The position numbers were made by a program, and so were the translations under genes. The notes under the pieces were generated by a model. It was not told the origin of the DNA and ran no database searches. It saw only the letters and a list, made by a program, of their open reading frames with translations. From positions 558,001-622,000 of the forward strand of contig JAHLLQ010000002.1 in assembly GCA_020444065.1 (NCBI GenBank): a stretch of DNA of 64,000 nt, given 5' to 3'. Positions 16,541-47,833 of the stretch are shown piece after piece; the first letter of the stretch is position 1, and every line of letters begins with the position of its first letter. Source of the stretch: a bacterium. GTDB lineage: Bacteria; Sumerlaeota; Sumerlaeia; SLMS01; JAHLLQ01.

Positions 16541-16642
16541 GTGCGCAAAGACTGAAAAGATACCGATATCGGCACCTTTGGAGTGAGGGACCAATCGCCG
16601 ATCACAGTTTCAGCCGCAAAATCTTCGGAGGGAGGAGAGTTT

Positions 16643-17233: not shown

Positions 17234-18138
17234 AATTCCATTACTATCCCGGTTGTTCTGTACGCGGTGCAAACTCTCCCTTCGAAGAATCCTTCCTCGC
17301 AGTCTGCAAAGCTCTTGGAATGGACATGCAGGAAATCGAAGACTGGAACTGCTGCGGCGCAACGGCCTACATGGCCATTGATGAGAAGAAAGCGCTGGCC
17401 CTCGCAGCACGCAACCTGGCGATCGCCGAGAAGATGGGGGACGAAGACATCGTTACGCCCTGCGGCGGTTGTTACCTCGTCCTGAAAAAATCCCATGATT
17501 GCTTCCACGGAAACGGCCACTCAGCGAAGCGTCGCGAGATCATCAAGAAAGCCCTCAGCGCTGCAGACCTCAGCTACAAAGGCTCGAATCGTCCGCGGCA
17601 CATTCTTGATGTCGTCGTGAACACGATGGGTCTTCAGGCTGTAAAGGACCGCGTCGTTCGTCCGCTCGAAGGCATCAAGGTGGCCCCCTACTATGGCTGC
17701 CAGATTGTTCGTCCACACAACGAGTTGGACGGCGTCTTCTATCCCATGGCGCTCGACCATCTGCTCGAAGCGCTGGGCGCGGAGGTCGTTGACTTCCCGA
17801 TGAAGGCACGCTGCTGCGGCGGCAGCCTGACCGGCACCGTCGGCAAGATCGGCCTGGAACTCAGCCAGATCCTGCTGACCGAAGCTAAGCGTCGCGGTGC
17901 AGATGTGATCGCGACAGCTTGCCCGCTGTGCCACTTCAATCTCAGTTCGTACCAGGACCAGGTCTCGAAGGAATTCGGTGGTGGGGGAATGCCCACGGCG
18001 TACTTCACCCAGTTGATGGGCGTGGCATTCGGAATGTCCGTCACCGAGATGGGACTCCAGAAGAACCTGGTAACCTGCGACAAGTTGATGAAGCTCGGCG
18101 CGAGCACTGCCAAAGCCCAGCCCGCGGAGGTGAACTGA
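17230..18138 (+). CDS. hdrB: HdrB-like catalytic subunit of heterodisulfide reductase
   Basis: 302 aa, normal HdrB length. It has the two cysteine-rich CCG domains that hold the noncubane [4Fe-4S] clusters: NCCGATAYM with downstream CGGC, and YGCQIV, RCCGGS and CPLC. HdrB is the subunit that reduces the disulfide substrate. The start overlaps hdrC by 4 nt and the stop overlaps hdrA by 1 nt (TGATG), so expression is coupled. Both cysteine sets look complete, which argues for a catalytically competent protein. Confidence 0.94.
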   Translation: MKFHYYPGCSVRGANSPFEESFLAVCKALGMDMQEIEDWNCCGATAYMAIDEKKALALAARNLAIAEKMGDEDIVTPCGGCYLVLKKSHDCFHGNGHSAKRREIIKKALSAADLSYKGSNRPRHILDVVVNTMGLQAVKDRVVRPLEGIKVAPYYGCQIVRPHNELDGVFYPMALDHLLEALGAEVVDFPMKARCCGGSLTGTVGKIGLELSQILLTEAKRRGADVIATACPLCHFNLSSYQDQVSKEFGGGGMPTAYFTQLMGVAFGMSVTEMGLQKNLVTCDKLMKLGASTAKAQPAEVN

Positions 18139-20213
18139 TGGAGTCGAACGGGGAGATTAGGATTGGTTTCTATGTTTGCCATTGCGGGTCGAACATCGGG
18201 CGCGTCGTAGACGTACCCAGAGTCGCCGATACCATGTCGAAGATGCCTGGTGTCGTCGTTTCCCGCGATTACAAGTACATGTGCTCCGAACCGGGCCAGG
18301 CCCTGGTCGAGCAGGACATCAAAGACCATCGTCTGAATCGCGTTGTGGTTGCCTCATGCAGCCCACTTCTGCACGAGAAGACGTTCCGCACAGCCGTCGG
18401 CCGCGCGGGGCTCAATCCCTTCTACTTCCAGATGGTCAACATCCGCGAGCACGTCTCCTGGGTGCATGAAGACTCGATGGAAGCAACCGAGAAGGCGATC
18501 GCGCTCTCCCGTGCGGCGATCCATCGCGTCGTCTACCATCGACCGCTGGAAACGCGTCGAGTCGATATCAAGTCGAGCGTCCTGATCGTCGGCGGCGGAA
18601 TCGCCGGCATTCACTCTGCGTTGAAACTCGCGGACGCCGGAGTGAAGGTTTATCTCGTGGAACGCGAGATGACCATCGGCGGCCACATGGCGAAGTTCGA
18701 CAAGACTTTCCCCACGATGGATTGCGCGGCGTGTATCCTGACGCCAAAGATGGCCCAGGTGCGCGAGCACCCGAACATCACGCTGTGGACAAACTCGGAA
18801 GTCACTGGACTCGACGGGCACGTTGGCAGCTTCAAGGCCACAGTCGTGCGGCATCCGCGTTACGTGAAGGAAGACCTTTGCGTCGGCTGCCTTGATTGCA
18901 TCGAAGGATGCGTCGTTCGGACATCCGACGGTCGCTCGTCGATGATCTCCGTCGACGCTTTCCGGAAGAGTCGCTCGGACAGCAATGGCGCCACGCCGAA
19001 GGTTGCGGTGACCAAACTGCCAAACGAGTTCGACGAAGGCCTCTCGACGCGCAAGCCCGTCTACATTCCCTTCCCGCAGGCTGTCCCGCAGATCGTCGCG
19101 GTGGACCCGAACTCCTGCCTGCAGATCAAGACAGGGAAGTGTAAACAAACCTGCGTCGAGCGTTGCGAACGCGACGCATTCGACTTCACACAAACAGATA
19201 CGACCGAAGAGATCGAAGTCGGCGCCATCATTGTTGCGACTGGCTTCAAGACATTCGATCCGCACCGGATTCCCGAGTATCACTACAACGACTACGAGGA
19301 AGTCTACACGGCGCTTGAAGTCGAGCGCATGGTGAATGCTTCCGGCCCGACCGGCGGCCACATCGAGATGAACAACGGCCAGCGGCCGAAATCCGTTGGC
19401 ATCGTTCATTGCGTCGGATCGCGCGATTTCCACTACAACCGGTGGTGCTCGCGCGTCTGCTGCATGTACTCGCTGAAGCTCGCTCACCTGATCCGCGAGC
19501 ACACCGGCGCCGAAATCTATAACTGCTACATCGATATGAGGTGCCCCGGAAAGGGCTACGAGGAATTCTACGATCGGCTTCTCGCGGAAGGCGTTCACTT
19601 CATCCGCGGGCGTGTCGCAGAGATCCTCGATTGGCCCATGAGCAAGGCGGAAGAAGGCAAACTCGTCCTGCGCGTCGAGGATACGCTGGCGGGCTTCGTG
19701 CGTCGCGTTCCGGTGGACATGGTTGTTCTTTCAACCGGACTCGAACCGCGGGCAGACTCCGAAGACGTTCGCCGACTGTTTGGCATCTCGTGCTCGACCG
19801 GCGGCTTCTTCTTGGAGAAACACCCGAAACTGGCGCCGGTCGAAACGACCAGCGACGGCGTTTATCTGGCCGGCTGCTGCCAGGGGCCGAAGGACATTCC
19901 CGACACCGTCGCCCAGGCCGGTGCGGCCGCCGCGGAAGCTCTGGCACTCATCAGCCGAGGGTACATCGAAATGGAGCCCAACACGGCCTCGATCGACGAG
20001 GAGGAATGCTCCGGCTGCAAGTCTTGCATTGGACTGTGCCCGTACAACGCGATTCACTTCGACGAGGAGAAGAACGTTGCAGTGATCGACGAAACGTTGT
20101 GCAAGGGCTGTGGCACCTGCGTCGCGGCGTGCCCGTCCGGCTCCATCAAACAGAACCTGTTCGAAGACGACCAGATCTTTGCCGAGATCGAGGAGGTGCT
20201 GGCCCATGTCTGA
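18138..20213 (+). CDS. hdrA: HdrA-like FAD/iron-sulfur electron-bifurcating subunit
   Basis: 691 aa, typical of HdrA. The N-terminal domain has FYVCHCGSN. The FAD-binding VGGGIAGIHS (151-160) is followed by GGHMAKFDKTFPTMDC. A mid-protein ferredoxin insert (CVGCLDCIEGC at about 248-258) and C-terminal ferredoxin motifs CSGCKSCIGLCP and CKGCGTCVAACP (about 623-660) complete the electron path. The FAD is where electrons bifurcate between the disulfide and ferredoxin. The ATG has GGAGGTG upstream; longer frames from 17919 lie inside hdrB and are not used. It overlaps mvhD by 8 bp. Confidence 0.95.
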   Translation: MESNGEIRIGFYVCHCGSNIGRVVDVPRVADTMSKMPGVVVSRDYKYMCSEPGQALVEQDIKDHRLNRVVVASCSPLLHEKTFRTAVGRAGLNPFYFQMVNIREHVSWVHEDSMEATEKAIALSRAAIHRVVYHRPLETRRVDIKSSVLIVGGGIAGIHSALKLADAGVKVYLVEREMTIGGHMAKFDKTFPTMDCAACILTPKMAQVREHPNITLWTNSEVTGLDGHVGSFKATVVRHPRYVKEDLCVGCLDCIEGCVVRTSDGRSSMISVDAFRKSRSDSNGATPKVAVTKLPNEFDEGLSTRKPVYIPFPQAVPQIVAVDPNSCLQIKTGKCKQTCVERCERDAFDFTQTDTTEEIEVGAIIVATGFKTFDPHRIPEYHYNDYEEVYTALEVERMVNASGPTGGHIEMNNGQRPKSVGIVHCVGSRDFHYNRWCSRVCCMYSLKLAHLIREHTGAEIYNCYIDMRCPGKGYEEFYDRLLAEGVHFIRGRVAEILDWPMSKAEEGKLVLRVEDTLAGFVRRVPVDMVVLSTGLEPRADSEDVRRLFGISCSTGGFFLEKHPKLAPVETTSDGVYLAGCCQGPKDIPDTVAQAGAAAAEALALISRGYIEMEPNTASIDEEECSGCKSCIGLCPYNAIHFDEEKNVAVIDETLCKGCGTCVAACPSGSIKQNLFEDDQIFAEIEEVLAHV

Positions 20214-20697
20214 TAAATGGCAGCCAACAATTGTGGGGTTCTTCTGCAACTGGTGCACTTACACGGCGGCGGATCTGGCCGGTGTGTCGCGCATGAAGTA
20301 TCCTGCCACGGTTCGCGTCATCCGGCTGATGTGTTCCGGACGCGTGGATCCGCAGTTCATTCTGAAAGCCTTCGCCGGCGGTGCCGATGGCGTGCTGATC
20401 GGCGGTTGCCATCCCGGCGACTGCCACTATCTCGAAGGAAACTACAAGGCGCTGCGGCGCTTTGAAATGATGAAGAAACTGATCGCCGGTTTCGGCATCG
20501 ACGAAAAACGCCTGCGGCTCGAGTGGATCTCCGCCGCGGAAGGCGAGAAGGTCAAACGCGTCATCGAGGAAATGACGCAGCAGGTTCAGGAACTCGGCCC
20601 GCTCGACGTGCCGAAGATCTTTGCCGGATGGGACGAGGAACTGGACAAGCTTGAGGAGGAAATCAAGAAGGAGGCGGAGGAACCAAGCCATGTCTGA
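20206..20697 (+). CDS. mvhD: MvhD-like [2Fe-2S] linker subunit
   Basis: 163 aa. Five cysteines in the MvhD arrangement (FFCNWCTY, LMCSG, GGCHPGDCHY) bind a [2Fe-2S] cluster that transfers electrons from the hydrogenase small subunit to HdrA. The C-terminal third is an acidic/basic helix. It overlaps hdrA by 8 bp and mvhG by 8 bp. It is separate here, whereas in some organisms it is fused to HdrA. The start is set by GGAGG 9 nt before ATG 20206. Confidence 0.93.
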   Translation: MSDKWQPTIVGFFCNWCTYTAADLAGVSRMKYPATVRVIRLMCSGRVDPQFILKAFAGGADGVLIGGCHPGDCHYLEGNYKALRRFEMMKKLIAGFGIDEKRLRLEWISAAEGEKVKRVIEEMTQQVQELGPLDVPKIFAGWDEELDKLEEEIKKEAEEPSHV

Positions 20698-21658
20698 CAA
20701 GCCCAAGATCGCAATGTATTGGTGCGCATCCTGTGGCGGGTGCGAGGAATCGGTCGTCGACCTGGCGGAGGACATCCTCTTCGTCGTCGAGAACGTCGAT
20801 ATCGTCTTCTGGCCCGTTGCATTGGACTTCAAGAAGAAGGACGTCGAAGCAATGGAGGACGGTTCGATCGTTGCCTCCTTCATCAACGGCGCCATTCGAA
20901 CCACCGAGCAGGAAGAGATGGTTCGCATGCTTCGCCGCAAGAGCCAGATCGTCATCGCATACGGCTCCTGCGCACAGACGGGCGGCATTCCCGCCCTCGC
21001 GAACCTCTGCGAGCGCGAAGCCATCCTGCAGTACGTCTACCACGACGCGCCGACAGTCAAGAACCCGGAAGGCACTCGCCCGCAGTTGGAAACGCGAGAG
21101 AATGGGTTTCGAGCCACGTTGCCGGAATTCCACAACGTGGTTCGCACACTCGGCCAGATCGTCGATGTGGACTACTACCTGCCCGGATGCCCGCCGAGTC
21201 CGAAGCTGCTGAAGGAAGCGGTCATCGTGCTGCTCTCCGGCAATCTTCCGCCGAAGGGTACGGTGCTTGCGCCCGACAAGGCGTTGTGCGACGAGTGCGC
21301 TCGCAAGGAGACCAAGCCCGAGACGATGGAGATCGAAGCCTTCCATCGCCCGCACAACACGCCGGTGGATCCGGAGCTCTGCTTCCTGGCCCAGGGCATC
21401 GTGTGCATGGGACCGGCGACACGTGCCGGATGCGGAGCAGCCTGCACCTGTGGAAACATGCCATGTACAGGTTGCTATGGCCCGACGTCGCGCGTCGAGG
21501 ACCAGGGAGCGAAGATCCTCTCGTCCCTGATGGCAAACCTTGCGCCAAAGGATGAAGAGGGCATTCGCAAAGCCCTCGAGGGTATTCCCGATCCCGTGGG
21601 AACCTTCTATCGCTATGCCGTGGCCGGTTCGTTGATGCGCGGCAAACTCACCAAATAA
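20690..21658 (+). CDS. mvhG: MvhG-like small subunit of group 3c [NiFe]-hydrogenase
   Basis: 322 aa. The N-terminal cluster motif CASCGGCEE, GSCAQTGG and PGCPPSP ligate the proximal cluster. The C-terminal region (CDECARK, then CFLAQGIVCMGP and CGAACTCGNMPCTGC) supplies ligands for further [4Fe-4S] clusters. It relays electrons from the Ni-Fe site to MvhD. There is no Tat signal, so the enzyme is cytoplasmic as expected for group 3. Start ATG 20690 overlaps mvhD by 8 bp. Confidence 0.94.
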   Translation: MSDKPKIAMYWCASCGGCEESVVDLAEDILFVVENVDIVFWPVALDFKKKDVEAMEDGSIVASFINGAIRTTEQEEMVRMLRRKSQIVIAYGSCAQTGGIPALANLCEREAILQYVYHDAPTVKNPEGTRPQLETRENGFRATLPEFHNVVRTLGQIVDVDYYLPGCPPSPKLLKEAVIVLLSGNLPPKGTVLAPDKALCDECARKETKPETMEIEAFHRPHNTPVDPELCFLAQGIVCMGPATRAGCGAACTCGNMPCTGCYGPTSRVEDQGAKILSSLMANLAPKDEEGIRKALEGIPDPVGTFYRYAVAGSLMRGKLTK

Positions 21659-21682
21659 ATACCGAGCGAGGAGTGGGGAGTA

Positions 21683-23206
21683 ATGGACGAACCCGTCAAA
21701 GAAGTCTTTAACGAAGCAAGAGAGCGAGCAGCCCAGGACTATAAGAATCAGCGCCGGATCACGATCGATCCCATCACTCGTCTGGAGGGGCACGGCAAGA
21801 TCGATGTGTTCCTGGACCAGAAGGGTGAGGTCGAGCGGGCGTACTTCCAGGTTCCCGAGCTGCGTGGCTTCGAGATCTTCAGCATCGGCCGGCCGGCGGA
21901 GGATATGCCGCAGATCACAAGCCGCATCTGCGGCGTCTGCCCGACGGCGCACCACATGGCAGCAACGAAGGCGCTGGACGATCTCTACAAAATCAAACCC
22001 ACCAGTGCGGGCCGCAAGATTCGCGAGTTGATGTACAATCTGTTCATGCTCGAAGATCATGCGCTGCACGTTTATGTTCTTGGTGGCCCCGACTTCATCG
22101 TTGGCCCGGATGCACCGGCTGCGATGCGGAATATCCTCGGCGTCATCGAGAAGACTGGACTCGACGTTGGCAAGAAAGTCATCGGCATGCGGCGTCGCAT
22201 CCGTGAAGCCATGGCATACCTCGGCGGCAAGGTCGTGCACCCGGTGCTTGGCCTGCCCGGCGGCGTCGCGAAAGGTGTGAAGGCCGATGATCTGCCGATG
22301 TTCAAGGAACTGGCAAAGGACGGGCTCGAGTTTGCCCAGTTCACGCTCCAGGTCTTCAGCGACATCGTTCTCAAGAACGAGAAGTATGTCGAACTTGTCA
22401 CATCCGAGAACTACACGCACCGCACGAACTACATGGGAGTTGTCGACGATCAGAATCGTGTCAACTTCTACGATGGCATGATTCGCGTTGTCGGACCCGA
22501 AGGTAACGAAGTCGTCAAGTTCAAGGCGCAGGATTACCTGAAGCATATCTCCGAACACGTTGAGCCCTGGAGCTACGTGAAGTTCACGTATCTTGAGGAC
22601 ATCGGCTGGAAGGGTTTCACCGACGGACCGGACAGCGGCGTGATCTCCGTTGCCCCGCTTGCGCGCTTGAACGCCGCGGATGCGATGGCTACGCCTCTGG
22701 CGCAGGAAGCTCGCGAGGAGTACTTCAAGATCCTCGGCGGTCGTCCGGTACACTACACGCTCGCGAATCACTACGCGCGTGTCGTGGAAATGATTCAGGC
22801 CGCGGAGACGATCCAAGAACTCGTCAATGATCCTGAAATCACCAGCACCGATCTTCGGAATATCCCGACCGAGACTCCCACTGTGGGCATCGGCGTTGTC
22901 GAAGCTCCACGCGGCACGCTTTATCACCACTACGAAACAGACGAGCGCGGCGTCCTGACAAAGGCCAACCTGATCGTCGCGACGCAGAACAACTCGGCGC
23001 GCATGGCCATGAGTGTCGAGAAGTCCGCGAAGGGCCTGATCCACGAGGGCAAGGTCGATGAGGGCCTGCTCAACATGGTCGAGATGGCCTTCCGCGCGTA
23101 CGATCCGTGCCATGCTTGTGCTACGCACTCCCTGCCGGGACAGATGCCGCTGCGCGCACGCGTGTACGACGCTGAAAAGAATATCATCCAAGAGTTCCAG
23201 AAATGA
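21683..23206 (+). CDS. mvhA: MvhA-like large subunit of group 3c [NiFe]-hydrogenase
   Basis: 507 aa catalytic subunit. The L1 motif RICGVCPTAH (C83, C86) and L2 motif DPCHACATH (C476, C479, H482) provide the four Ni ligands, so the active site is intact. A 25-residue tail after H482 should be removed by the maturation protease encoded next. It oxidises H2 in the cytoplasm. The 24-bp gap from mvhG contains GAGGAG. It overlaps the protease gene by 4 nt. Group 3c assignment follows from the operon and motif spelling. Confidence 0.95.
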   Translation: MDEPVKEVFNEARERAAQDYKNQRRITIDPITRLEGHGKIDVFLDQKGEVERAYFQVPELRGFEIFSIGRPAEDMPQITSRICGVCPTAHHMAATKALDDLYKIKPTSAGRKIRELMYNLFMLEDHALHVYVLGGPDFIVGPDAPAAMRNILGVIEKTGLDVGKKVIGMRRRIREAMAYLGGKVVHPVLGLPGGVAKGVKADDLPMFKELAKDGLEFAQFTLQVFSDIVLKNEKYVELVTSENYTHRTNYMGVVDDQNRVNFYDGMIRVVGPEGNEVVKFKAQDYLKHISEHVEPWSYVKFTYLEDIGWKGFTDGPDSGVISVAPLARLNAADAMATPLAQEAREEYFKILGGRPVHYTLANHYARVVEMIQAAETIQELVNDPEITSTDLRNIPTETPTVGIGVVEAPRGTLYHHYETDERGVLTKANLIVATQNNSARMAMSVEKSAKGLIHEGKVDEGLLNMVEMAFRAYDPCHACATHSLPGQMPLRARVYDAEKNIIQEFQK

Positions 23207-23703
23207 CTGGGACTCGACAGAAGCCGATCCTCGTCCTCGCCCTGGGTAACGACATCCTGGGCGATGACGGGATTGCGTTTTATGCCGCCCGCGCGCTGCA
23301 GGAGGAATTCTCCGCAGTCGCCGATTTCACCGAAACCGCCGAGGCCGGCCTGGCATTGATGGAAATGCTGGAGGGCTACGAGTACGCCCTCCTCATGGAT
23401 TCCGTCATGACCGGGCAATGCGATCCGGGCACCATCGTGGAATTTCAGACGGAGCAATTCAAGAAGGTCGTCGCCCCGTCGCCTCACTACGCCGGCTTGC
23501 CGGAAGTCCTTGAACTCTCGGCGCGCCTCGGCCTCGACATGCCGACCGGGATGCGCATCCTTGCCATGGAAGTCGCCGACCCATTTACGCTTCGCGAGGA
23601 GCTGACGCCAGACGTCGCACGCGCCCTTCCAAACCTCGTCGATGCCGCCCGCGCGATTCTCGAAGAATGGAGAGCTTCGGTTCCATGCACGAATACACAT
23701 TGA
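23203..23703 (+). CDS. [NiFe]-hydrogenase maturation protease
   Basis: 166 aa endopeptidase of the HycI/HybD family. GNDILGDDGIAFYAA near the N-terminus carries the conserved metal-binding acidic residue, and SPHYAGLPEVL carries the later conserved His. It should clip the MvhA C-terminal tail after nickel insertion. The start ATGA overlaps the mvhA stop, matching a dedicated protease for this enzyme. Confidence 0.9.
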   Translation: MTGTRQKPILVLALGNDILGDDGIAFYAARALQEEFSAVADFTETAEAGLALMEMLEGYEYALLMDSVMTGQCDPGTIVEFQTEQFKKVVAPSPHYAGLPEVLELSARLGLDMPTGMRILAMEVADPFTLREELTPDVARALPNLVDAARAILEEWRASVPCTNTH

Positions 23704-24074
23704 TGGAGAACGTGATCGAAACGGTCGAGCAGGATCTGGCCGCGCAAGGCCACGACACATCCGCCGGCATTTCGGCAATCAGCTTCCGCATCGGCATGCT
23801 TGAGATGCACTCCGTCGAATCGTTCCGCCAGGCATTCGATTGGATCACGAAGGGCACGATCCTCGAAGGTGCGGCGCTCGATTTCGAAGTCATCCCATCC
23901 CGCATTGCGTGCGAGAAGTGCGGGTACAAAGCGGACCTGTCTATGGGCGATGCCGATTGCCACGATCCTTCGCCTGTCATTGCCTGCCCGGAATGTGGAG
24001 CCGTTACGCCCGTCCAGGGCGGACGCGGCGTGACAGACATTCAACTGACCCTGCGAGAGACGGCCGATAAATGA
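23685..24074 (+). CDS. hypA: Hydrogenase nickel insertion protein HypA
   Basis: 129 aa. Translation from ATG 23685 gives MHEYTLM, placing the nickel-binding His at position 2 as HypA requires; the upstream in-frame ATG at 23667 would bury it. The zinc site is C76, C79, C101 and C104 (CEKCG, CPECG). It overlaps the protease gene by 19 bp and ends the operon. HypB to HypF are not in the window and must lie elsewhere if the enzyme is matured. Confidence 0.93.
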   Translation: MHEYTLMENVIETVEQDLAAQGHDTSAGISAISFRIGMLEMHSVESFRQAFDWITKGTILEGAALDFEVIPSRIACEKCGYKADLSMGDADCHDPSPVIACPECGAVTPVQGGRGVTDIQLTLRETADK

Positions 24075-24196: not shown

Positions 24197-25390
24197 ATGC
24201 TATATCGCCGATTTGGCCGAACTGAATTGCAAATGCCTGTCCTGTCCTGCGGCGGCATGCGATACCAGCACAAGTGGGAGGACACGCCGCTCGCCGACAT
24301 TCCGGACGAGAATCAGCGCAATCTCGAAGCCACCATCGCTCGCGCGATCGGTGCCGGCATCAACCACATTGAAACGGCACGCGGCTACGGCAGCAGCGAA
24401 CGTCAGCTTGGCCAGATTCTGCCGAAGTACCCGCGCGAGAGCCTGATCGTCCAGACCAAGGTTGCTCCCGAAGCCGACAGCGGAGTCTTCCGCAAGAACG
24501 TCCTAGAATCCCTCGAACGGCTGAATCTCGATTACGTCGATCTGCTCGGCCTGCATGGGATCAACAATGACGAAACCTACGAATGGTCCGTGCGTGAGGG
24601 AGGATGTCTGCAAGTCGCGCGCGAGTTGCAAAGCCAGGGCCTCGTTCGACACATCGGTTTCTCGACCCACGCCACGCCGGAGTTCCTGCCCACCGCGATC
24701 AAGACCGACGTTCACGGCGGGTTCGACTACGTCAATCTGCACTGGTATTGGATCTACCAAAGAAACTGGGGCGCGATTCTCGAAGCGCGCAAACGCGACA
24801 TGGGCGTCTTCATTATCAGCCCGTCGGACAAGGGCGGAATGCTGTACAATCCTCCGGAGAAGCTTTGCCGTCTCACCGAGCCCGTCCATCCAATCATCTT
24901 CAACGACCTCTTCTGCCTGTCTCATCCCGAGGTTCACACGCTCAGCATCGGCGCAGCGAAACCCGGAGATTTCGACCTGCACGTCGAAGCCATTGAGAAT
25001 TGGTGGGACAAGCGCGACGAGATCGTCGCACCTGTCGAAGAAGCTCTTCGTGCAGAGATCGCGAAGACTTTCGATTCAGACTATCTGGAGAACTTCGAGA
25101 AGGGTGTTCCGGAATTCCGCCATCTGCCCGGCGATACCAATGTGCAGATTATCCTTTGGCTGCATATGCTCGCAAAGAGCTTCGACCTCGAGGAATACGG
25201 CAAGATGCGCTACAATCTGCTTGGCAACGCGGGCCACTGGTTTCCAGGAACGAACGCGGCCGATTTCGACGAAGCCGCCATGCGGGAGGCCCTCAGAGAC
25301 ACCGCCGATCCGGAGCGCATCATTCGGACGCTGCATGAAGCGCACGAGATGCTCGTTCGCGACCCAGTGAAGCGCCTCAGCGAGAGCTGA
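24197..25390 (+). CDS. Aldo/keto reductase family protein
   Basis: 397 aa. The N-terminal (beta/alpha)8 barrel begins MLYRRFGRTELQMPVLSCGGMR. Active-site positions are GINHIETARGYGSSERQLG (Tyr present; the usual catalytic Asp is Glu), TKV (Lys) and LHG (His). The C-terminal 120 residues are helical. In many relatives this region ends in a cysteine-rich ferredoxin-like segment; here those cysteines are absent. NAD(P)H-dependent carbonyl reduction is likely; substrate unknown. It follows the hydrogenase operon by 122 bp but is probably a separate unit. Confidence 0.85.
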   Translation: MLYRRFGRTELQMPVLSCGGMRYQHKWEDTPLADIPDENQRNLEATIARAIGAGINHIETARGYGSSERQLGQILPKYPRESLIVQTKVAPEADSGVFRKNVLESLERLNLDYVDLLGLHGINNDETYEWSVREGGCLQVARELQSQGLVRHIGFSTHATPEFLPTAIKTDVHGGFDYVNLHWYWIYQRNWGAILEARKRDMGVFIISPSDKGGMLYNPPEKLCRLTEPVHPIIFNDLFCLSHPEVHTLSIGAAKPGDFDLHVEAIENWWDKRDEIVAPVEEALRAEIAKTFDSDYLENFEKGVPEFRHLPGDTNVQIILWLHMLAKSFDLEEYGKMRYNLLGNAGHWFPGTNAADFDEAAMREALRDTADPERIIRTLHEAHEMLVRDPVKRLSES

Positions 25391-25408
25391 CAAATCGCCA
25401 CAAAGAAC

Positions 25409-25448
25409 AAGACGCACAGGGGCCAAGAACCGGTCCCCTCTGCGTCTT
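25409..25448. terminator. Bidirectional terminator between convergent genes
   Basis: The stem AAGACGCA-c-AGGGG pairs with CCCCT-c-TGCGTCTT (13 bp, one mismatch). T-rich tracts flank both sides on the respective strands. It sits between the aldo/keto reductase (ends 25390) and the minus-strand gene ending at 25470. Confidence 0.75.
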
Positions 25449-25469
25449 TGACTTTCATATGGGGGCTGC

Positions 25470-27038
25470 TCAATCCTCCCACTTGCTCTCTGTACCGGTG
25501 GTTGTTGTGCCGCCGCCTTGCCCTTTGCCGCGGGCCCGCATATCCTCGACCTTCTCCTTCAAGGCCATCATGTCGCGGTCGTTCTTCCGCATCAGCAGCG
25601 CCTGGTCGACGAAGATACCGGCGACAGAGGTATCGCCCGCAAGCAGGTAGGCCTTCGCGATGTGGCCATAGATCTCGAACGTCAGATCCGGAACCGTCTC
25701 CTTCACCGGCGACGCCACAATTCGCAGAACATCGCCCTCGAACTTCCCGCGCTTGTCCTCAAACGCGATCACATTCAGCCCGATTTCCACACAGTTTCGT
25801 ACGCCCTGGTAGAGCATGCGCATCAGGTCGAGCGGCAGCTTGCTGTGCACGCCGGTGCGCATGATATCCAGCAGCGAGCCGAAATCGCGCGGCTCGATCC
25901 ACCCGCGCCGCATCCACTTGTCGTTCGTCATCCGGAAGCGATATTCGAGCAACTTCCCGCAGTGCATCGTCCACGTGTAGTACACCATCTTCACGCAGCG
26001 ATACATGCGCGATGTTTGCTCGTCGGACTTCTCCGACAAGTGACTCATATCCGGAATATAGCGTGCCAGAATACACGCCAACTCCTCGCATTCCCAAAGC
26101 ATATTGAACGGCGCGCGTCCCTGCTCGCGATCGAAGTCGCTGGCCATGGCAATGATCTTCGTACAAGCCTCCAGCACCGATTCCTTCAGACCATGGTTTG
26201 CCAGGTAGTCCGCCGCCACGTAGTGCGCATCGTGATAGTAGCCCTTGTCACAGAGCTTTAGCGCCTCGCGAATCGATTCATCTGCTGTTGTGCCGACACT
26301 CAACTGCTTCTGCCGTTCCTGTGCTTCAAGCGGCGGCTTGATCGGTTCCAGAAACTGGCGATACTTGGCGCGTGGGTGCCCATCATCGGATTGCGATGAA
26401 TGGAGTTGTACCGCTGATTTCGGCCCTTCCGTGGGAACAGCCTTCGGGGGAAGCGGCCTGGGGTTCGGGTTCCTGATGGCGCCCTCTGGGATAGGGCGCC
26501 TGGGACGCACTGGACCAATGTCATCTAATGTGATTTCCGGCTTCCGTTTTGGCGGGGGAGCAGTCTTCTTTGGCAGCGGCTTCCCGCCGCCCGGCACGCC
26601 TGTTTTTTGAGCAGGACGCTGCTTGGCGACCGGCTTGGGCGCGGGTTTCATTCGCTCTTCCCGCGCCTGCGCCTCCAGAGCCTTCCTGCGCCAGGGACTG
26701 ACCGGAATGTTGGCGGGAATCTGGCCCGACTTCGTGCCCGTCGTATAGACTCCGGAAGAACGAGACGACATCCGCCGGCGCGTCTGTTCCTGGGCCAGCA
26801 ACTGGCGCAACTTATCGAGACCCGCCACTGCCAGCAGTCGGCGGACTTCGCGAAACTCCTCCGACCCCGGGTGAGGCGACGTGTCGTGCATGTTGTCCGG
26901 TGTGAGGTTGGCAAGAAACAGCGAGAAGAATCCGCGATGACTGAAGATCTGATGATCCGGTTCAGTCACTCCCAGCAGGCGCAGAGCTTCCACGCACTTG
27001 CGCTCTTCCTCTGGCGTCAGCGATCGTCCTGGGCTCAT
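25470..27038 (-). CDS. Tandem paralogue A of an unrecognised family
   Basis: 522 aa, no signal peptide. An N-terminal ~85-residue domain (SLTPEEERKCVEALRLLG, then HRGFFSLFLANLTPDNM) is joined by a long Pro/Lys/Arg-rich linker (about 110-230) to a helical C-terminal domain (about 265-500: SDFDREQGRAPFNMLWECEELA, NDKWMRRGWIEPRDFG). The same two domains, without the long linker, make up the gene immediately upstream at 27217-28533. I do not recognise the family. The C-terminal half has TPR-like helix pairs but no clear consensus. GGGAG precedes the ATG. Function unknown; duplication and divergence are evident. Confidence 0.85.
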   Translation of the reverse strand: MSPGRSLTPEEERKCVEALRLLGVTEPDHQIFSHRGFFSLFLANLTPDNMHDTSPHPGSEEFREVRRLLAVAGLDKLRQLLAQEQTRRRMSSRSSGVYTTGTKSGQIPANIPVSPWRRKALEAQAREERMKPAPKPVAKQRPAQKTGVPGGGKPLPKKTAPPPKRKPEITLDDIGPVRPRRPIPEGAIRNPNPRPLPPKAVPTEGPKSAVQLHSSQSDDGHPRAKYRQFLEPIKPPLEAQERQKQLSVGTTADESIREALKLCDKGYYHDAHYVAADYLANHGLKESVLEACTKIIAMASDFDREQGRAPFNMLWECEELACILARYIPDMSHLSEKSDEQTSRMYRCVKMVYYTWTMHCGKLLEYRFRMTNDKWMRRGWIEPRDFGSLLDIMRTGVHSKLPLDLMRMLYQGVRNCVEIGLNVIAFEDKRGKFEGDVLRIVASPVKETVPDLTFEIYGHIAKAYLLAGDTSVAGIFVDQALLMRKNDRDMMALKEKVEDMRARGKGQGGGTTTTGTESKWED

Positions 27039-27216
27039 CGCTCTCTCCCGGTATCGGTGCGAGGCCCCAATTGGCGAACTTGGGCTTTAAATGGGAACAA
27101 AGCACATAGGAGAAACCCCTGTCAAGACAACACGGAAGCAAAATAAGAGAATCGTGTACTAACAGCACACAGAACAGGGATTGATGTGGACATGTCCAGG
27201 TTTTTGGGGCGCAGGA

Positions 27217-28533
27217 CTACTTCTTCTTCCGGATTCCATCCCACCAGCGCTTCTTCTTCGGGGCGCCGGGCTTATCCGATTCCTCATCCGGGACATCCTG
27301 ATGGCGGGCGCGCTGCAGCCGCGCCCTCAATCGGTCAATCTCAGGATTATCCGGCAGAATACTGGAGGCCATCGTCAGGAAGTTGTTCGCATTCGTCAGA
27401 TCCCCGGCGCGATGGTACGCCCGGACGATATCGCAGGCGACGTCAAACGCCAGCTTCTCGTAGTTCTCGCGCAGTGGCGAGATGACGATCCGCAGGAACT
27501 CCGCCTCGAACTTGCCCTGCTTATCCGGGAAGGCGATGACATGCTCGCCAACTTCCATCACGTGACGCGCACTCTTATAGAGCCGCCGCATCATTTCCAT
27601 CGGCAGATTCGTTCGCGCCCCGGAACGGAAGACATCCAGCACAAACCCGAAGTCGCTCGGTTCCACCCACTGCCGGCGCATCCACTCGTCGTTGCGAATG
27701 CGGTACTTGTACTCCACCAGCGCGCGGCAATGACGCAGCCACGTCTCGTAAATGTGAGCAACCATGCGGAACTTGGTTACCGTTTCTGCATCGCCCTTCT
27801 TCGACAGGCGCGAGACCTCGGGAATGAAGCGCACGATCGTCGCGGCCAGGTGCTCGCACTCGTGAAGCATATTCACCGGCCCGACGCCTTGCTCGCGATC
27901 GAAGCTCGAAGCGCGCTCGATCACGCCCAGGCCCGCCTCCAACACACCACTGCTCAAGCCGACATTCTCAAAGTACGCCGTCACCACGTAGTACGCATCC
28001 TGGTAACGGCCTTCGTTGCGCAGTTGCAGGATGTAGGTAATCGCCTCTTCCGTATCGGCCGGATCCAGGCTCTTCACGTCCAGATCGCTCTTCGGAAGGT
28101 TCACCTTGTGAGGATGGGGAGTATGAGTCGCCTGATATTTCTCCTCCTCTTCCTCCTCATCACCCTCGACCAGCGTCACTTCGTCCGCGATTCCGGGCGT
28201 GGGCGTCCGGAAGGCCGAAGAGGGCGTCTCGATTCCCTCCACTCCGGTCGAGGGGCGGATTGGCTGCTTCTCGGCCTCCACTCGTTTTGCCAGCAGCTCA
28301 CGCAGCCGCTCGGCCCCCGCCCGGGACAGCAGCTTGCGGATTTCCATGAAGGCTTCCACGTCCGGATGGGCCGCGCCTTCCCCCATCTCATCCGCGGTCA
28401 AACCAGTCATATAAAGGGCGAAGTAACCGTGATTGCTGATCAATGGATGATCCGGCCGGGTGATCCCCAGCACTTCCAACGCGGCCAGACACTGATCCTC
28501 TTGATCCGGCGTCAACGGAGCCTTTTTGGCCAT
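27217..28533 (-). CDS. Tandem paralogue B of an unrecognised family
   Basis: 438 aa, no signal peptide. It aligns end to end with the gene at 25470-27038: PLTPDQEDQCLAALEVLG against SLTPEEERKCVEALRLLG; SSFDREQGVGPVNML against SDFDREQGRAPFNML; RNDEWMRRQWVEPSDFG against TNDKWMRRGWIEPRDFG. The linker (about 100-150) is shorter and acidic (EEEEEK). The C-terminus is basic (KKKRWWDGIRKKK). ATG 28533 is chosen because it matches the paralogue's N-terminus and has GGGGA 8 nt upstream; a frame extension to 28563 is likely untranslated. Conserved aromatic and charged positions suggest a shared fold and possibly a heteromeric partnership. Confidence 0.85.
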   Translation of the reverse strand: MAKKAPLTPDQEDQCLAALEVLGITRPDHPLISNHGYFALYMTGLTADEMGEGAAHPDVEAFMEIRKLLSRAGAERLRELLAKRVEAEKQPIRPSTGVEGIETPSSAFRTPTPGIADEVTLVEGDEEEEEEKYQATHTPHPHKVNLPKSDLDVKSLDPADTEEAITYILQLRNEGRYQDAYYVVTAYFENVGLSSGVLEAGLGVIERASSFDREQGVGPVNMLHECEHLAATIVRFIPEVSRLSKKGDAETVTKFRMVAHIYETWLRHCRALVEYKYRIRNDEWMRRQWVEPSDFGFVLDVFRSGARTNLPMEMMRRLYKSARHVMEVGEHVIAFPDKQGKFEAEFLRIVISPLRENYEKLAFDVACDIVRAYHRAGDLTNANNFLTMASSILPDNPEIDRLRARLQRARHQDVPDEESDKPGAPKKKRWWDGIRKKK

Positions 28534-28776
28534 CTCGATTGTCCCCGATGGTTTGTGGGCCATTCAGTCTCAAGGCTTACAAGCTCCTTCATCCACGCTT
28601 CGGTGCCGAGTGTCAAGCCGGGTGGCGGGAGGCCTCCCACTTGACTGAGGTTCACTCATGGAAATTGCGAAATCGATATGCTTTGAGAAATCGGGTTGCG
28701 GACCTGTCCTGACCACCCGCAAAATCCAGAAGCTGTCGGCGATTGGAACCGGCAGTTCAATATAGTCGGAGGGGAG

Positions 28777-30891
28777 ATGATTGTGTCTACAGCGTTTGGG
28801 ATGTATCGGGCGAGTGCGATGGCCGTCGCAGCCATCGCTGCGATCATTTTGATGGGTTGCGCCACCCAGGACACGGGTCCCGTCGAGGAGTGGCAGCAAT
28901 TGCGCGACGAAGCGCAGTCCTATTTCTGCGAATGGAAAATCGGATCTGCTATCAATTCAGAATCCCAGGCCTATGACCTCGCCAAGGAGGAATTCGGCGA
29001 GGATGATCTCAGGACCGCAGAGATTCTTCATGGCTTGGCGCAATTGCACCGCGCTCACGGAGATGACGAGGTCGCCGAGGAGTTGTATCATCGAGCGCTT
29101 CGACTCTTTGAAGAGCACTACACGGCCGACGATCCGGAGCTCGCCCAGATTCTGGCGAATATGGCCCAAATGTACGCCGACAGGGAGGACTTCGAGCAGG
29201 CAGAGGCATACGCCGACCGCTCGTTTGCAATCCGAGAGAAGGCCTTCGGACCGGATTCGCCGGAGGTTGGCCAGAACTACTTTCTATACAGCTACATCCG
29301 ACTTTCCGAGGAGAGGATCAACGAGGCGGAAGAATTGGCTCTCAGATGTTTCGAACTCCGCAAACCACTCGGCGATGACAATGAGTCTCTCTGCGATGAG
29401 CTCGGTCATCTTGCGACCGTGTACGAGTTCCAGGATCGATATGAGGAGGCGCTGGAGCTTCGAAAACGCGCCGTTGCCCTTTATGAAGACGAAATCGCAA
29501 TTGTCTACCCGGATGGATACATTAACGTGCTCAATGGACTCGTGAATACCGAGTTGATGCTCGGCATGAACGAAGAAGCCGAAGAGCACCTCCTGAAGGC
29601 CCTTGAGATCGCCCAGGACTTCTTCGGTCCATCCGATGCTCACACAGCTGAGGAGATGGTAGGGATTGCCGAGGTGCATACATTCGTCATCAAGAGCGAT
29701 CAGGCAAAAGACTGGATCGGGAAGGCCATGGAGGCGGTCGGCAAAGCCTTTGACCCGAACAGCCCGGAATATTCCGCAATGCATTGGAAACTCGAGCAGA
29801 TGCGCAGTTCACTCGATGACTCGGAAGGAGCTTTGGAACTGGCCAATGAATGGCTGGAGCATGCGAGGGAGAAGTATGAGACCGATGGAGATGCCAGAGG
29901 GATGATCATCGCCCATGACGCTGTTGCAGGCGCCCTGATCAGGCTGAAGCGCCGGGACGAGACAATACTCCATCTTGAGAAAATGCTCAAGTTCCAGGAA
30001 ATCCACTACGGTGCAAACCATAGCGAAGTTGGAATGACCCACCTCCTTCTAGCCTGCCATAGTCTTCTGAAAGGCGACAAGACACGAGTTGAGCAAGAGG
30101 TTGCCTGGGTTCGAGCAGTTTGGATGACGGCTCCAATCGATGAGAATCTGGAGAGGGTGGAACAATTGCAGCCATACATCCGGTATTTTGAATCCCAAGG
30201 CCGACACGATGTCGTGGCACTCATCCTGACACGCATCGTCGCGGTGTACGATGAGATCCTCGGTCCGACCGACGAGAAGACATTTGAAACCCTCTCCGAT
30301 CTCACCGAGGCCTACTCCAATGACGGAGATATGGAGGGCGCACTCGATGTCCTCAAGGACGTCGTAGCCCGACGACGCGAAAGCCCCGGGAAGTACCAGA
30401 TTAAAATGATCAGCGCGATGGATGATCTGGCTTCCTACTACGACTGGCTGGATATGTACGAAGAATCCGAACCGATCTACCGCGACGAGATCGATCTCCT
30501 CACTGCGAATGTTGGCCCTGAAGACTCTTGGACGGCCGATGCATGGAACAATCTGGGATATTCCCTCTGGCTCCAGGACAAAGACGAGGAAGCGGAAGAA
30601 GCCTATAAGAAATCCATCGCCATCTACGACTCGATCAGTCAAGACACACGCGGACGGCGAGCTTCTCCCACGTACAATCTTGCGCTTCTCTACGAATATC
30701 ATGACAGAGCGGAAGACGCAGAGCGTTGTTTCATGCAGTGCCTCGCCATGGAAGAAGGCGAACTCGGCCCCGACCATCCCGAAGTCGCCGCCACCCTGCG
30801 CAGCATCGCCACCTTCTACAGAAACCTTGGCCGCGACGCTGAAGCAGAAGAATTCGACCAACGCGCTACCAATATCGATGGGGAGGAGTAG
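28777..30891 (+). CDS. TPR-repeat lipoprotein
   Basis: 704 aa. Signal peptide with lipobox LMGC (C28), so it is membrane-anchored. The rest is almost entirely kinesin-light-chain-type tetratricopeptide repeats of about 42 residues (for example ALRLFEEHYTADDPELAQ, FAIREKAFGPDSPEV, LAMEEGELGPDHPEVAATL). It probably scaffolds protein contacts at the envelope. GGAGGGGAG directly precedes ATG 28777, and a GTG at 28783 has better spacing. A second TPR gene follows after 19 bp, so they form an operon. Confidence 0.85.
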   Translation: MIVSTAFGMYRASAMAVAAIAAIILMGCATQDTGPVEEWQQLRDEAQSYFCEWKIGSAINSESQAYDLAKEEFGEDDLRTAEILHGLAQLHRAHGDDEVAEELYHRALRLFEEHYTADDPELAQILANMAQMYADREDFEQAEAYADRSFAIREKAFGPDSPEVGQNYFLYSYIRLSEERINEAEELALRCFELRKPLGDDNESLCDELGHLATVYEFQDRYEEALELRKRAVALYEDEIAIVYPDGYINVLNGLVNTELMLGMNEEAEEHLLKALEIAQDFFGPSDAHTAEEMVGIAEVHTFVIKSDQAKDWIGKAMEAVGKAFDPNSPEYSAMHWKLEQMRSSLDDSEGALELANEWLEHAREKYETDGDARGMIIAHDAVAGALIRLKRRDETILHLEKMLKFQEIHYGANHSEVGMTHLLLACHSLLKGDKTRVEQEVAWVRAVWMTAPIDENLERVEQLQPYIRYFESQGRHDVVALILTRIVAVYDEILGPTDEKTFETLSDLTEAYSNDGDMEGALDVLKDVVARRRESPGKYQIKMISAMDDLASYYDWLDMYEESEPIYRDEIDLLTANVGPEDSWTADAWNNLGYSLWLQDKDEEAEEAYKKSIAIYDSISQDTRGRRASPTYNLALLYEYHDRAEDAERCFMQCLAMEEGELGPDHPEVAATLRSIATFYRNLGRDAEAEEFDQRATNIDGEE

Positions 30892-30910: not shown

Positions 30911-32032
30911 TTGACCATGGAAGACCTGCGGAGTTTCAGGGAACGATTTGGAGACGATGAGGAAGCGCTTCGCCGCGAGCTTGAAGAACTGGAGAGCTCG
31001 GTCGCTCCGGATCTGTCTCGTCGACATGGGATCGTTGGTCGCCTGGCGGAGATCTGTCTGGAACGGAAGCAATTCGACGAGGCCGATCACTTCGCCGCAC
31101 GCCTCGTTGAACTCGCTGTCGAAGAATACGGTCCGATTCATATCCGCGTGGCGGGCAGCCTCTCAAGTCTCGCAACGATCCGTCGGAAGTGGGGGAACTG
31201 GGAAGAGGCCAAGGTGCCATTCTATCGGGCAATCGAGGTCGCGCGACAGGTTCCCGCAACGCGCACGCTCGAGCAAGGCCAGGAGTTCCTCCGCAATGCA
31301 CGTGATCTCTTCGCTCGCGGTTACGTGGAAGAAGCTGTCCTCGACCTGGAATTGGCCTGCCCGATTCTTCTCAGACACCTCGGCCCAGACCACCGAGATT
31401 ACCTGAGGGCACTCCAGTTCCTGGCCACTGCCTACTCAGAGATCCCGGATCTGGACAGCGCCCGGCCGATCCAGAAGGAACTGCTGGAACATTGGCGCCG
31501 GAACGGCGGCGAGCAGAATGGCATGCTCGAGACGGCCCTTCAAAATATGGCTCGTCTCGAATCGCGGGCTGGCGCGTTGGTTGAGGCTCTGGAGTACTTC
31601 CTGGAATGGCGAGACCTTTGCCTGCAGGCCTATGGGTACTACGACCTCCTGACGGCCAATGCCTACGCCGAACTCGGTGGGTGCCTGCGTTACATGAAGC
31701 GATGGGAAGAGGCGAAAGAAATCCTGGAGATGGCGCTTGAGATTTATAAGGAACTGGACGCCTCTCGCCATCCCGGCAGCATCGAGCCACGCCTGGACCT
31801 TGCCTGGGTCGAAGGGAATACGGGTGGACTGCAAGCCGCCCAAAGCCTCTACCACGAAGCGCTCGACATACAGATCGAAACCACCGGAGAGATCCATCCC
31901 GAGGTCCACCGCATTCTCAAGATCCTGGCCAGCTTTCACGGTATGCGTGGGCGACATGATATCGCCGACCAACTCGATGAGGATGTCAGGCGGATCAAGA
32001 AGGCCTTGGAAGATCGTCCGGCGAACGCGTAG
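30911..32032 (+). CDS. Cytoplasmic TPR-repeat protein
   Basis: 373 aa with no signal peptide. Six to seven TPR-like units of the same kinesin-light-chain type as the upstream lipoprotein (VELAVEEYGPIHIRVA, LEIYKELDASRHPGS, DIQIETTGEIHPEVHR). The TTG at 30911 has AAGGG 9 nt upstream; ATG 30917 is the alternative two codons later. It is probably co-transcribed with the TPR lipoprotein and may be its cytoplasmic counterpart. No catalytic motif is visible. Confidence 0.8.
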   Translation: MTMEDLRSFRERFGDDEEALRRELEELESSVAPDLSRRHGIVGRLAEICLERKQFDEADHFAARLVELAVEEYGPIHIRVAGSLSSLATIRRKWGNWEEAKVPFYRAIEVARQVPATRTLEQGQEFLRNARDLFARGYVEEAVLDLELACPILLRHLGPDHRDYLRALQFLATAYSEIPDLDSARPIQKELLEHWRRNGGEQNGMLETALQNMARLESRAGALVEALEYFLEWRDLCLQAYGYYDLLTANAYAELGGCLRYMKRWEEAKEILEMALEIYKELDASRHPGSIEPRLDLAWVEGNTGGLQAAQSLYHEALDIQIETTGEIHPEVHRILKILASFHGMRGRHDIADQLDEDVRRIKKALEDRPANA

Positions 32033-33696: not shown

Positions 33697-34082
33697 TCCC
33701 TCTTCGTCAACTCCGCAACCTTCTCCAGGAACGTATCCGGGTCGATGGGCTTGGTCATGAAGGCATCGGCTCCGATCGAGCGCCGCCATTCGTCGTCCGA
33801 ACGCCCCGTTTCCTGGGTCAGCCCTGTCAGGACCATGGCTGGGATGTTCTTCGTCGTCTCGTCCTTCCGTAGTTCCATCAGCAGCTGGTAGCCGTTCATC
33901 TTCGGCATCTTCATGTCCAGCACGACCAGGACGGGGAGCGTTGCCCGGATGCAGGCCAGCCCCGACTCGCCGTCGTGGGCGATGCAGCAGGCGAACTGGC
34001 GCGACTCCAGCATCAGCCGGATCAGATCGCACACCTCGCGCTCGTCATCGATCACACAAACCTTTGGCCGATCGGGCATCAT
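33678..34082 (-). CDS. Stand-alone response regulator receiver domain
   Basis: 134 aa, a single CheY-like receiver domain with no output domain. Acidic pocket D12/D13, phospho-acceptor D56 (VVLDMKMPKMNG), T86 and K111 are all present, so it should be phosphorylatable. AGGAG is 3 nt before the first ATG and 6 nt before a second ATG at 34079, which may be the true start. No histidine kinase is adjacent. It could act in a phosphorelay or bind a partner directly. Confidence 0.92.
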   Translation of the reverse strand: MMPDRPKVCVIDDEREVCDLIRLMLESRQFACCIAHDGESGLACIRATLPVLVVLDMKMPKMNGYQLLMELRKDETTKNIPAMVLTGLTQETGRSDDEWRRSIGADAFMTKPIDPDTFLEKVAELTKREVASGE

Positions 34083-34680
34083 GCGCTCCTATTCTCCCAT
34101 GGCGAAATCTTGCGGAGAGAGTCGGAACGGCTGCAACGAAAAGCCGCTTCGGCCTGTCGCACGAAGAGTGAGTCAACTTGCTCCGCAGGACGATGCAACA
34201 CGGCATCGCGGACACCAGGTGTCGCCCTTAGCTTTTTTCTAACATAGCTGAAAGTGCAGGGGGAAATGTTCAGATCAGGCGCGCTTTGGACGGAACTGGA
34301 CTTAAAGTGGGGCCGCCCCCCAGGTGGCCCAGGTGTCCCCCGCGAACCGTGATCCCGCGGCAGCCTTCTATGTCCAGTTGTGTCAGTATTTTTCCCTATG
34401 TTCTTCGATAGAGGAGAGGACGTTCCAACTACTGCCAGAATGTCATGAAAAGGTCCCCGGCTCCCGCAGGAATCGGCAGGACTTTTGGCCTCGGCTCGAA
34501 AGAACGCTTTATAGAAACGCACGCGCGAGGCTGCCAATCCGCTTGACCCCCCCGAGGGTGGCCCGCAAGGTGCGTCGCGAAGTCGGGAGGGCAATCCGGG
34601 GCAACGCGATAGCAGGACCCCAAAGTTGCGTACTTTCACTCAAAAAGAATAGATCCATTCCAATATAGGAAAGGTGCATC
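34083..34680. other. Long intergenic region upstream of gap
   Basis: 598 bp with no credible gene, between the divergent receiver gene and gap. Visible elements are a CGATGC-aacacg-GCATCG hairpin at 34191-34208 and an odd palindrome GACACC-a-GGTGTC at 34211-34223, a possible operator. Close to gap there is a weak promoter-like TTGCGT (34626-34631) with AT-rich sequence 17 nt on. AGGAAAGG at 34668-34675 is the gap ribosome-binding site. The middle 300 bp shows nothing I can assign. Confidence 0.4.
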
Positions 34681-35676
<996 letters not shown>

Positions 35677-35714
35677 TTCCGGCCCGTTCCAGTTTGGGTT
35701 CGGACGAACTCTCT

Positions 35715-35756
35715 CCGGCCCGGCGGACGGTCCCACGTCCCGCCGGGCCGGTTTTC
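35715..35756 (+). terminator. Intrinsic terminator after gap
   Basis: A perfect 12-bp stem CCGGCCCGGCGG/CCGCCGGGCCGG with a 13-nt loop, then TTTTCTTCT. Strong and correctly placed 38 bp after the stop. Confidence 0.93.
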
Positions 35757-35791
35757 TTCTCAGCAATCGCAAAATCTAAAGGAGTGTTACC

Positions 35792-36726: not shown

Positions 36727-37674
36727 ATGTCCGAAAAGCTCACCGTCGAAGGCATCGATCTTCACCTCGCTCATCCCGATGATGTGAAGACCCGCTGGAT
36801 CGGCAACGAACGCGTCCGCGAACAGCTCATTGCCGCCTGGACCGTCGTGGCCGAAGGCGACCTGCCGCTCAATCCGCGCCTGCTCGGCAAACCCGGCGTC
36901 GGCAAGACGACGCTGGCCTACAGTGTCGCTCGAGAGATGGGGCGCGAAGTCTATATTCTTCAGTGTACCATGGATACGCGGCCGGAAGATCTGATCGTCA
37001 CTCCTGTGATCGCGGGGGAGGGCAAGATCGCCTACCACGCGTCGCCCCTCGTAACGGCGATGCTGCGCGGCGGCGTCTGCATCCTGGACGAAGGCAACCG
37101 TATGAGCGAGAAGTCCTGGGCCTCGCTGGCTCCGGCGCTCGACATGCGACGCTACGTCGAATCCGTCGTCGCGGGTATCAAGGTCCCCGCCCATCCGGAG
37201 TTCCGCGTTGCCGTCACGATGAACGACGACGCGTCGACTTACGAGATTCCCGAGTACATCCAGTCCCGCCTTCAGCCGCAGATCGAAGTCGGCTTTCCGC
37301 GCCGCGATGAAGAGATCGAGATCCTACGCTTCAACGTGCCCTTTGCAGATGATAAGATTCTTGCCTACGTGGCGGACTTTCTCCAGAAGGCACATTCCGT
37401 GAACCTCCCCTTCAGTAGCCGCGACGGTGTGAACATCCTGCGCTACGCGTTGAAACTCGGCGCTCAGCGCAAGAATCCGCCCGAAGGTCACCTGGCCGAA
37501 TCCATCGAGGCCGTCCTCGGCGAGGAAGGCGCGGAGTTCCTGGACAGTGGCCTGCCCGCGGATCGGCTGCGCGGCGCGATGCGCGATCTGGAAGAATGGG
37601 AAGTCGAAGACGACGACGGCGAGTACTCCGACGATTTCTTCGACGAGGACGACGAGGACTCTCCCGACCGGTGA
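36727..37674 (+). CDS. MoxR-family AAA ATPase
   Basis: 315 aa. Walker A GKPGVGKT (54-61), Walker B GGVCILDEGNRM, the sensor-1-like VAVTMNDD and an arginine-finger region mark a MoxR-type ATPase, usually a chaperone for assembly of partner complexes. The C-terminal ~25 residues are almost all Asp/Glu. The usual DUF58 and von Willebrand A partners are not next to it; instead a lipoprotein gene overlaps its stop by 4 nt (GTGA). It is the first gene of a long coupled operon. Confidence 0.92.
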   Translation: MSEKLTVEGIDLHLAHPDDVKTRWIGNERVREQLIAAWTVVAEGDLPLNPRLLGKPGVGKTTLAYSVAREMGREVYILQCTMDTRPEDLIVTPVIAGEGKIAYHASPLVTAMLRGGVCILDEGNRMSEKSWASLAPALDMRRYVESVVAGIKVPAHPEFRVAVTMNDDASTYEIPEYIQSRLQPQIEVGFPRRDEEIEILRFNVPFADDKILAYVADFLQKAHSVNLPFSSRDGVNILRYALKLGAQRKNPPEGHLAESIEAVLGEEGAEFLDSGLPADRLRGAMRDLEEWEVEDDDGEYSDDFFDEDDEDSPDR

Positions 37675-47735: not shown

Positions 47736-47833
47736 TCTCTCGCATGCCTATATGCCCATTTTTCCTTGCCGAATCAGCATTCCAGCCCCCATTCTTAAGC
47801 TCAGACTGATACCAACCGCGCAAGGACCGTACA

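Follow-up and report, generated by a model that had tools for sequence, protein, structure and literature searches.

The window, a stretch of 64,000 nucleotides from a genome of the phylum Sumerlaeota, carries two adjacent minus-strand genes (A and B), the products of which consist of an N-terminal and a C-terminal domain joined by linkers of opposite charge (Table 1). For B, the ATG at position 28533 was taken as the start, and the mechanical open reading frame begins 10 codons upstream (28563). The codon-position GC pattern is gene-like in both genes, with GC3 values of 0.73 (A) and 0.76 (B), and a spacer of 178 bases separates them.

Table 1. Coordinates of genes A and B and of the parts of the encoded proteins (positions within the window)
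Feature	Position	Strand	Description	Basis
Gene A	25470-27038	(-)	522 aa; slower-evolving copy with ancestral-like basic linker	ORF, homologs, tree
A, N-terminal helical domain (residues 1-87)	26778..27038	(-)		Alignment; model helices 9-21, 35-44, 59-94
A, basic Pro-rich linker (residues 88-235)	26334..26777	(-)	pI 11.3	Mostly low pLDDT
A, C-terminal predicted TPR-like alpha-solenoid (residues 236-508)	25515..26333	(-)		AlphaFold model, pLDDT mostly >90; fold comparisons
Gene B	27217-28533	(-)	438 aa; apparently fast-evolving in-paralog of A	
B, N-terminal domain (residues 1-87)	28273..28533	(-)		Alignment
B, short acidic linker (residues 88-158)	28060..28272	(-)	pI 4.6	
B, C-terminal domain (residues 159-417)	27283..28059	(-)		Alignment; own single-sequence model of low confidence
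B, basic C-terminal tail	27220..27282	(-)	21 aa, net +6, ends KKKRWWDGIRKKK	ORF, composition

When we compared the two proteins by BLASTP, we obtained a score of 286 bits and an E-value of 1e-95 (35% identity across 480 alignment columns, gaps counted). This is in line with an earlier note on this DNA, which had described two adjacent genes aligning over an N-terminal domain of about 85 aa and a helical C-terminal domain. Both domains are 44% identical (over 85 and 254 aa, respectively), and the linkers share 23% identity over 73 aligned residues. Since the alignment runs from end to end with the exception of the linker, the duplicate is real and far beyond chance, and A and B constitute one small protein family. 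The conserved strings listed in the note were recovered from both proteins, namely FDREQG and the MRR..EP.DFG stretch, which reads MRRGWIEPRDFG in A and MRRQWVEPSDFG in B. Its description of the linkers was also accurate: that of A is long, basic and Pro-rich (148 aa, net charge +20, 19% Pro), whereas that of B is short and acidic (71 aa, net charge -9, 13% Pro). The C-terminal tail of A is acidic and the 21-residue tail of B is basic-aromatic.

An aldo/keto-reductase-like gene (24197-25390, +) flanks the pair on one side. It lies downstream of an Hdr/Mvh-type hydrogenase cluster (16583-24074, +), which appears to encode HdrC/HdrB/HdrA, the subunits D, G and A of an Mvh/Vhu-type [NiFe] hydrogenase, a maturation protease and HypA. 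Together, these genes of a Sumerlaeota genome apparently form a hydrogenase-heterodisulfide-reductase-like set of the electron-bifurcating kind. On the other side there are two TPR genes in tandem (28696-30891 and 30911-32032, both +), which are rich in TPR_12 repeats. The product of the first one (731 aa) starts with an apparent lipoprotein signal, as judged by eye, and no homolog of this protein was detected at E ≤ 1e-30 in the 11 other genomes of the order. Farther away, three frames of 186, 378 and 753 aa (34079-35772, -; 37596-39857, +) adjoin genes for a response regulator and an AAA ATPase and have no Pfam match at E ≤ 0.001. The strongest 2-kb step of AT skew in the window (-0.228) is located at 46001-48000.

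In the region 25300-28850, we did not find any promoter-like sites, and five terminator-like stems were detected vs. 2.6 expected from shuffled sequences. One of these stems is located in the gap between A and B, and such stems occur in shuffles too.

Distribution and genomic context of the family

A whole-genome search with B detected the family in 5 of 99 genomes. All five carriers belong to the window's own order of the Sumerlaeota (5 of 12 genomes), with one of five genomes in the window's own family and four of seven in the other family of the order. A profile constructed from the six proteins (A, B and four relatives) matched 6 of 39 genomes of the class, which were the same five with strong scores and a weak one (G014, E 2.7e-4 with the full profile) that was not counted because the match covered the TPR-like end. 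With a profile of the C-terminal domain 34 of 386 genomes were matched, five of which carry the family. We did not accept the remaining 29 matches (E 7e-4 to 0.1) as family members; most of them cover the last 40-60 or so profile positions, which form the TPR-like end, and four fall elsewhere in the profile. Four weak matches of the N-terminal domain elsewhere in the phylum (E 0.006-0.099, other frames) were treated as chance, with the surrounding frames inspected for L031 only.

When 84,980 species genomes were scanned with a pattern, a method that requires near-exact peptides for a match, only the same four relatives were returned. The records of these relatives bear the names of Candidatus Sumerlaeota or Sumerlaeia MAGs, with one titled 'bacterium' only. 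No relatives were found in viral contigs (pattern scan), in plasmids (tblastn with A) or, in a search that lacked a positive control, in 195 genomes of one other phylum. Taken together, these data show that within the genomes searched the family is restricted to one order of Sumerlaeota.

Each of the four other carriers has one copy, with genes flanking it on both sides. Because these genomes are 75-91% complete, a second copy may have been missed elsewhere, but none is present beside the first one.

When we compared the gene neighborhoods, no gene other than A/B was common to the window and the loci L010, L011 and L012/L013. The latter two, which come from two species of one genus, have one flanking gene in common. 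The aldo/keto-reductase-like gene is present in 9 of 12 genomes of the order, and in the six stretches compared, out of the eight others carrying its homologs, neither A/B nor any other of the 21 window genes compared was found alongside. Since no compared neighbor from the window adjoins the family in other genomes, the context does not indicate a pathway, and the hydrogenase/Hdr cluster next door does not provide a link.

Predicted fold and relation to known families

The structure of A was modeled with AlphaFold on the basis of the six-row alignment. The model has a mean pLDDT of 74.7, with values mostly above 90 in the C-terminal domain, of about 64-91 (by block) in the N-terminal domain and mostly below 50 in the linker. 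It can be seen that the C-terminal domain is all-helical and consists of five hairpins (252-264/268-282, 286-300/314-327, 340-368/383-398, 403-423/427-442, 450-466/470-483) and a capping helix (488-507). The prediction thus shows tandem helix-turn-helix hairpins that form a solenoid, and the C-terminal domain of A is a confidently predicted TPR-like solenoid. For this domain, the model bears out the conclusion of the earlier note that the conservation implies a defined fold, and its extent (about 250-270 aa) is close to the 230 aa or so estimated there. A single-sequence model of B reached a pLDDT of 51.7, which is too low to test anything. The hydropathy maximum over 19 residues ranged from 0.84 to 1.34 in the six proteins, which indicates no strong hydrophobic segment.

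Foldseek comparison of the A model with the PDB and with viral models yielded no match at E ≤ 0.001. The weaker Foldseek matches and the VIA-align matches were mostly TPR proteins, designed repeats, VPS35 and eIF3/PCI-type solenoids, with Sel1/TPR-type proteins among the top (weak) viral models and with some further helical proteins, including 14-3-3. The best VIA-align match (rmsd 5.8, 238 residues aligned) had a Z-score of 14.0, but values up to this level are unspecific since helical repeats reach them by their common arrangement. Within this helical-repeat range are also the matches to VPS35 and eIF3 PCI-type solenoids (Z 9.9-12.3, rmsd 4.0-7.2, 7-10% identity).

No family above cut-off was obtained for A, B and the four relatives in Pfam, PHROGs and PADLOC, nor for A and B in NCBIfam, which agrees with the earlier statement that no family could be recognized. 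The curated cut-off was not reached by any Pfam TPR model: the best one for B was TPR_19 (14.4 bits vs. a cut-off of 25), and none was listed for A. Over the six members, TPR_14 was the best TPR match (E 0.012, in three members). The family profile matched consensus TPR proteins at the last hairpin (about residues 452-485; 7obi, E 0.0015), and this hairpin (IYGHIAKAYLLAGDTSVAGIFVDQAL in A) fits the TPR sequence pattern. The profile match to the 34-residue TPR pattern is confined to this hairpin, and hairpin 1 looks TPR-like by eye. Comparison of the family with the two neighboring TPR proteins gave a profile alignment of 38 columns at the same end, with a probability of only 2.2%.

The family shares with TPR and Sel1-type solenoids the row of stacked helical hairpins (A model), the TPR-like last hairpin, the sub-threshold scores for TPR_14, TPR_19 and TPR_2 and a consensus TPR as top PDB sequence match. 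In contrast, the hairpins in its middle part are longer than those of TPRs and lack a TPR sequence, an N-terminal domain and a long linker are added, and the curated cut-off is not reached. Because the last hairpin and the predicted fold are TPR-like but no TPR model attains its cut-off, we call the C-terminal domain TPR-like and not a member of the TPR family. Ordinary TPR character of both domains, which the note had named as the finding that would speak against an unrecognized family, therefore applies in part: the C-terminal domain resembles TPRs in predicted fold and last hairpin but remains below the Pfam cut-offs, and the N-terminal domain has no assignment by sequence.

A 26-residue segment of the N-terminal domain profile could be aligned with a repeat of the designed PPR 6een (E 5.5e-6 for the whole sequence). 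However, this score is a sum over numerous similar repeats, and no individual stretch passes on its own; moreover, none of the Pfam PPR models matched A, B or the four relatives at E ≤ 10. A PPR or L-PSP-like nature of this domain, suggested by a short stretch only, was taken as chance. The same applies to single weak matches to Legumain prodomain (0.29), Harakiri, WAV3_C, YfdX, ANAPC3, a tape-measure phrog and the sigma-factor PRK12511, and to the only PADLOC match pointing to a known anti-phage defence protein (NsnC, E 0.046, in one of the six members).

In all six proteins 59 positions are invariant. Their frequency per residue is 0.03, 0.29, 0.15, 0.24 and 0.15 in hairpins 1-5, near nil in the cap, 0.18 in the N-terminal domain and 0.00 in the linker. 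Many of the invariant residues in hairpins 2-4 are polar or aromatic (D303, N312, E316, E318, W356, H359, E365, Y366, R378, W380, K429, R439), so that the central part of the solenoid may present a specific surface or pocket.

Duplication history and divergence of B

For phylogenetic analysis, we used 353 columns of the two domains from the six sequences. In the resulting tree A is the sister of B with a support of 100/99, and testing of alternative groupings rejected both A+L010 (p-AU 0.004) and A+L011 (p-AU 0.010). B has a longer end branch (1.31) than A (0.23). Tajima-type counts of unique changes in A/B with the four outgroups were 33/65, 25/62, 33/55 and 35/54 (p = 0.0012, 7e-5, 0.019 and 0.044; these tests are not independent). 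Of the sites at which all four relatives agree, 25 have changed in B only and 8 in A only. These data show, within the limits of six sequences and of long branches that can mislead, an apparent lineage-specific tandem duplication after which B changed more, and the adjacency of the two genes agrees with it.

The linkers of the four relatives, all of which come from genomes that lack B, are basic (pI 9.6-12.0) and contain 20-23% Pro. Because they resemble the linker of A, the basic Pro-rich form appears to be ancestral and the acidic linker of B derived. Between the A relatives of two species of one genus, we calculated dN values of about 0.10-0.11 and dS values of about 1.3-1.4 in both domains, and this difference points to strong purifying selection on these genes. 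In the same comparison the linker gave a dN of 0.40, with dS near saturation.

Discussion

We somewhat favor the interpretation that one soluble, most likely intracellular TPR-like adaptor or scaffold protein, which has a conserved groove and a tethered N-terminal domain, was duplicated in this lineage to give A and B. Judging from fold and conservation, solenoid hairpins 2-4, where the invariant residues are densest, may form the surface at which a conserved partner binds. The N-terminal domain of about 85 aa might contact a second partner, and the flexible basic Pro-rich linker would tether the two domains and allow them to reach over some distance. B has retained both domains, and its exchanged linker and its own basic-aromatic tail make a changed partner or a different localization probable, so that it may have been neofunctionalized. 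What counts against an adaptor is that no Foldseek match at E ≤ 0.001 and no TPR cut-off was reached, that different genera have no neighboring gene in common and that only six sequences are available.

The earlier note had suggested that A and B might be a complementary pair that always co-occurs. In its strict form, an obligate heterodimer held together by the basic and acidic linkers and by matching solenoids, this suggestion would account for two adjacent genes on the same strand with opposite linker charges (+20 vs. -9). However, four of the five genomes carrying the family have a single copy with genes on both sides, and the linkers of these single-copy relatives are basic even though no B is present. 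The 178-base gap with its terminator-like stem also speaks against a pair, though shuffles give such stems too. The tree placed B with A as a lineage-specific copy, and because the basic linker appears ancestral and the acidic one derived, an obligate pair is not supported and we regard it as improbable. Slightly less so, but still unlikely, is that selection on B is relaxed and that the gene is decaying as a duplicate with no separate function. Its longer branch and the 25 vs. 8 changes at conserved sites would be expected from such a gene, but its frame is intact over 438 codons, its GC3 is 0.76, and 59 positions, hairpins 2-4 included, are still invariant across all six proteins.

The invariant polar residues could also mean catalysis. 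Their concentration in the middle hairpins would suit an all-helical enzyme or a small-ligand-binding domain, in which D303, N312, E316, C317, E318, H359, E365, R378, K429 and R439 might line the site. Yet no enzyme family above cut-off was found in Pfam, NCBIfam, PHROGs, PADLOC or PDB sequences, and the fold comparisons gave mostly solenoids, which leaves this explanation with a small probability. Equally doubtful is that mobile elements carry the family as cargo: its patchy presence (one of five genomes in the window's own family vs. four of seven in the other) and the different neighbors in different genera may be read this way, but neither the pattern scan of viral contigs nor the tblastn search of plasmids yielded a relative, and in one genus a neighboring gene is common to two species. 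We consider it very unlikely that the N-terminal domain and the invariant center of the C-terminal domain are new folds or sites specific to the order and that A and B have evolved into subunits of one machine of this lineage, a scaffold that would carry a novel ligand pocket.

If A and B are indeed tethered adaptors, the family would combine a common kind of architecture with one unfamiliar front domain and would not by itself open a long-standing question. For a phylum whose protein content is little characterized, it provides one additional well-bounded family, restricted to a single order. The duplicate, in which the charge of the linker is flipped while the domains are kept, may serve as a natural small-scale test of the way in which tethered adaptors diverge.
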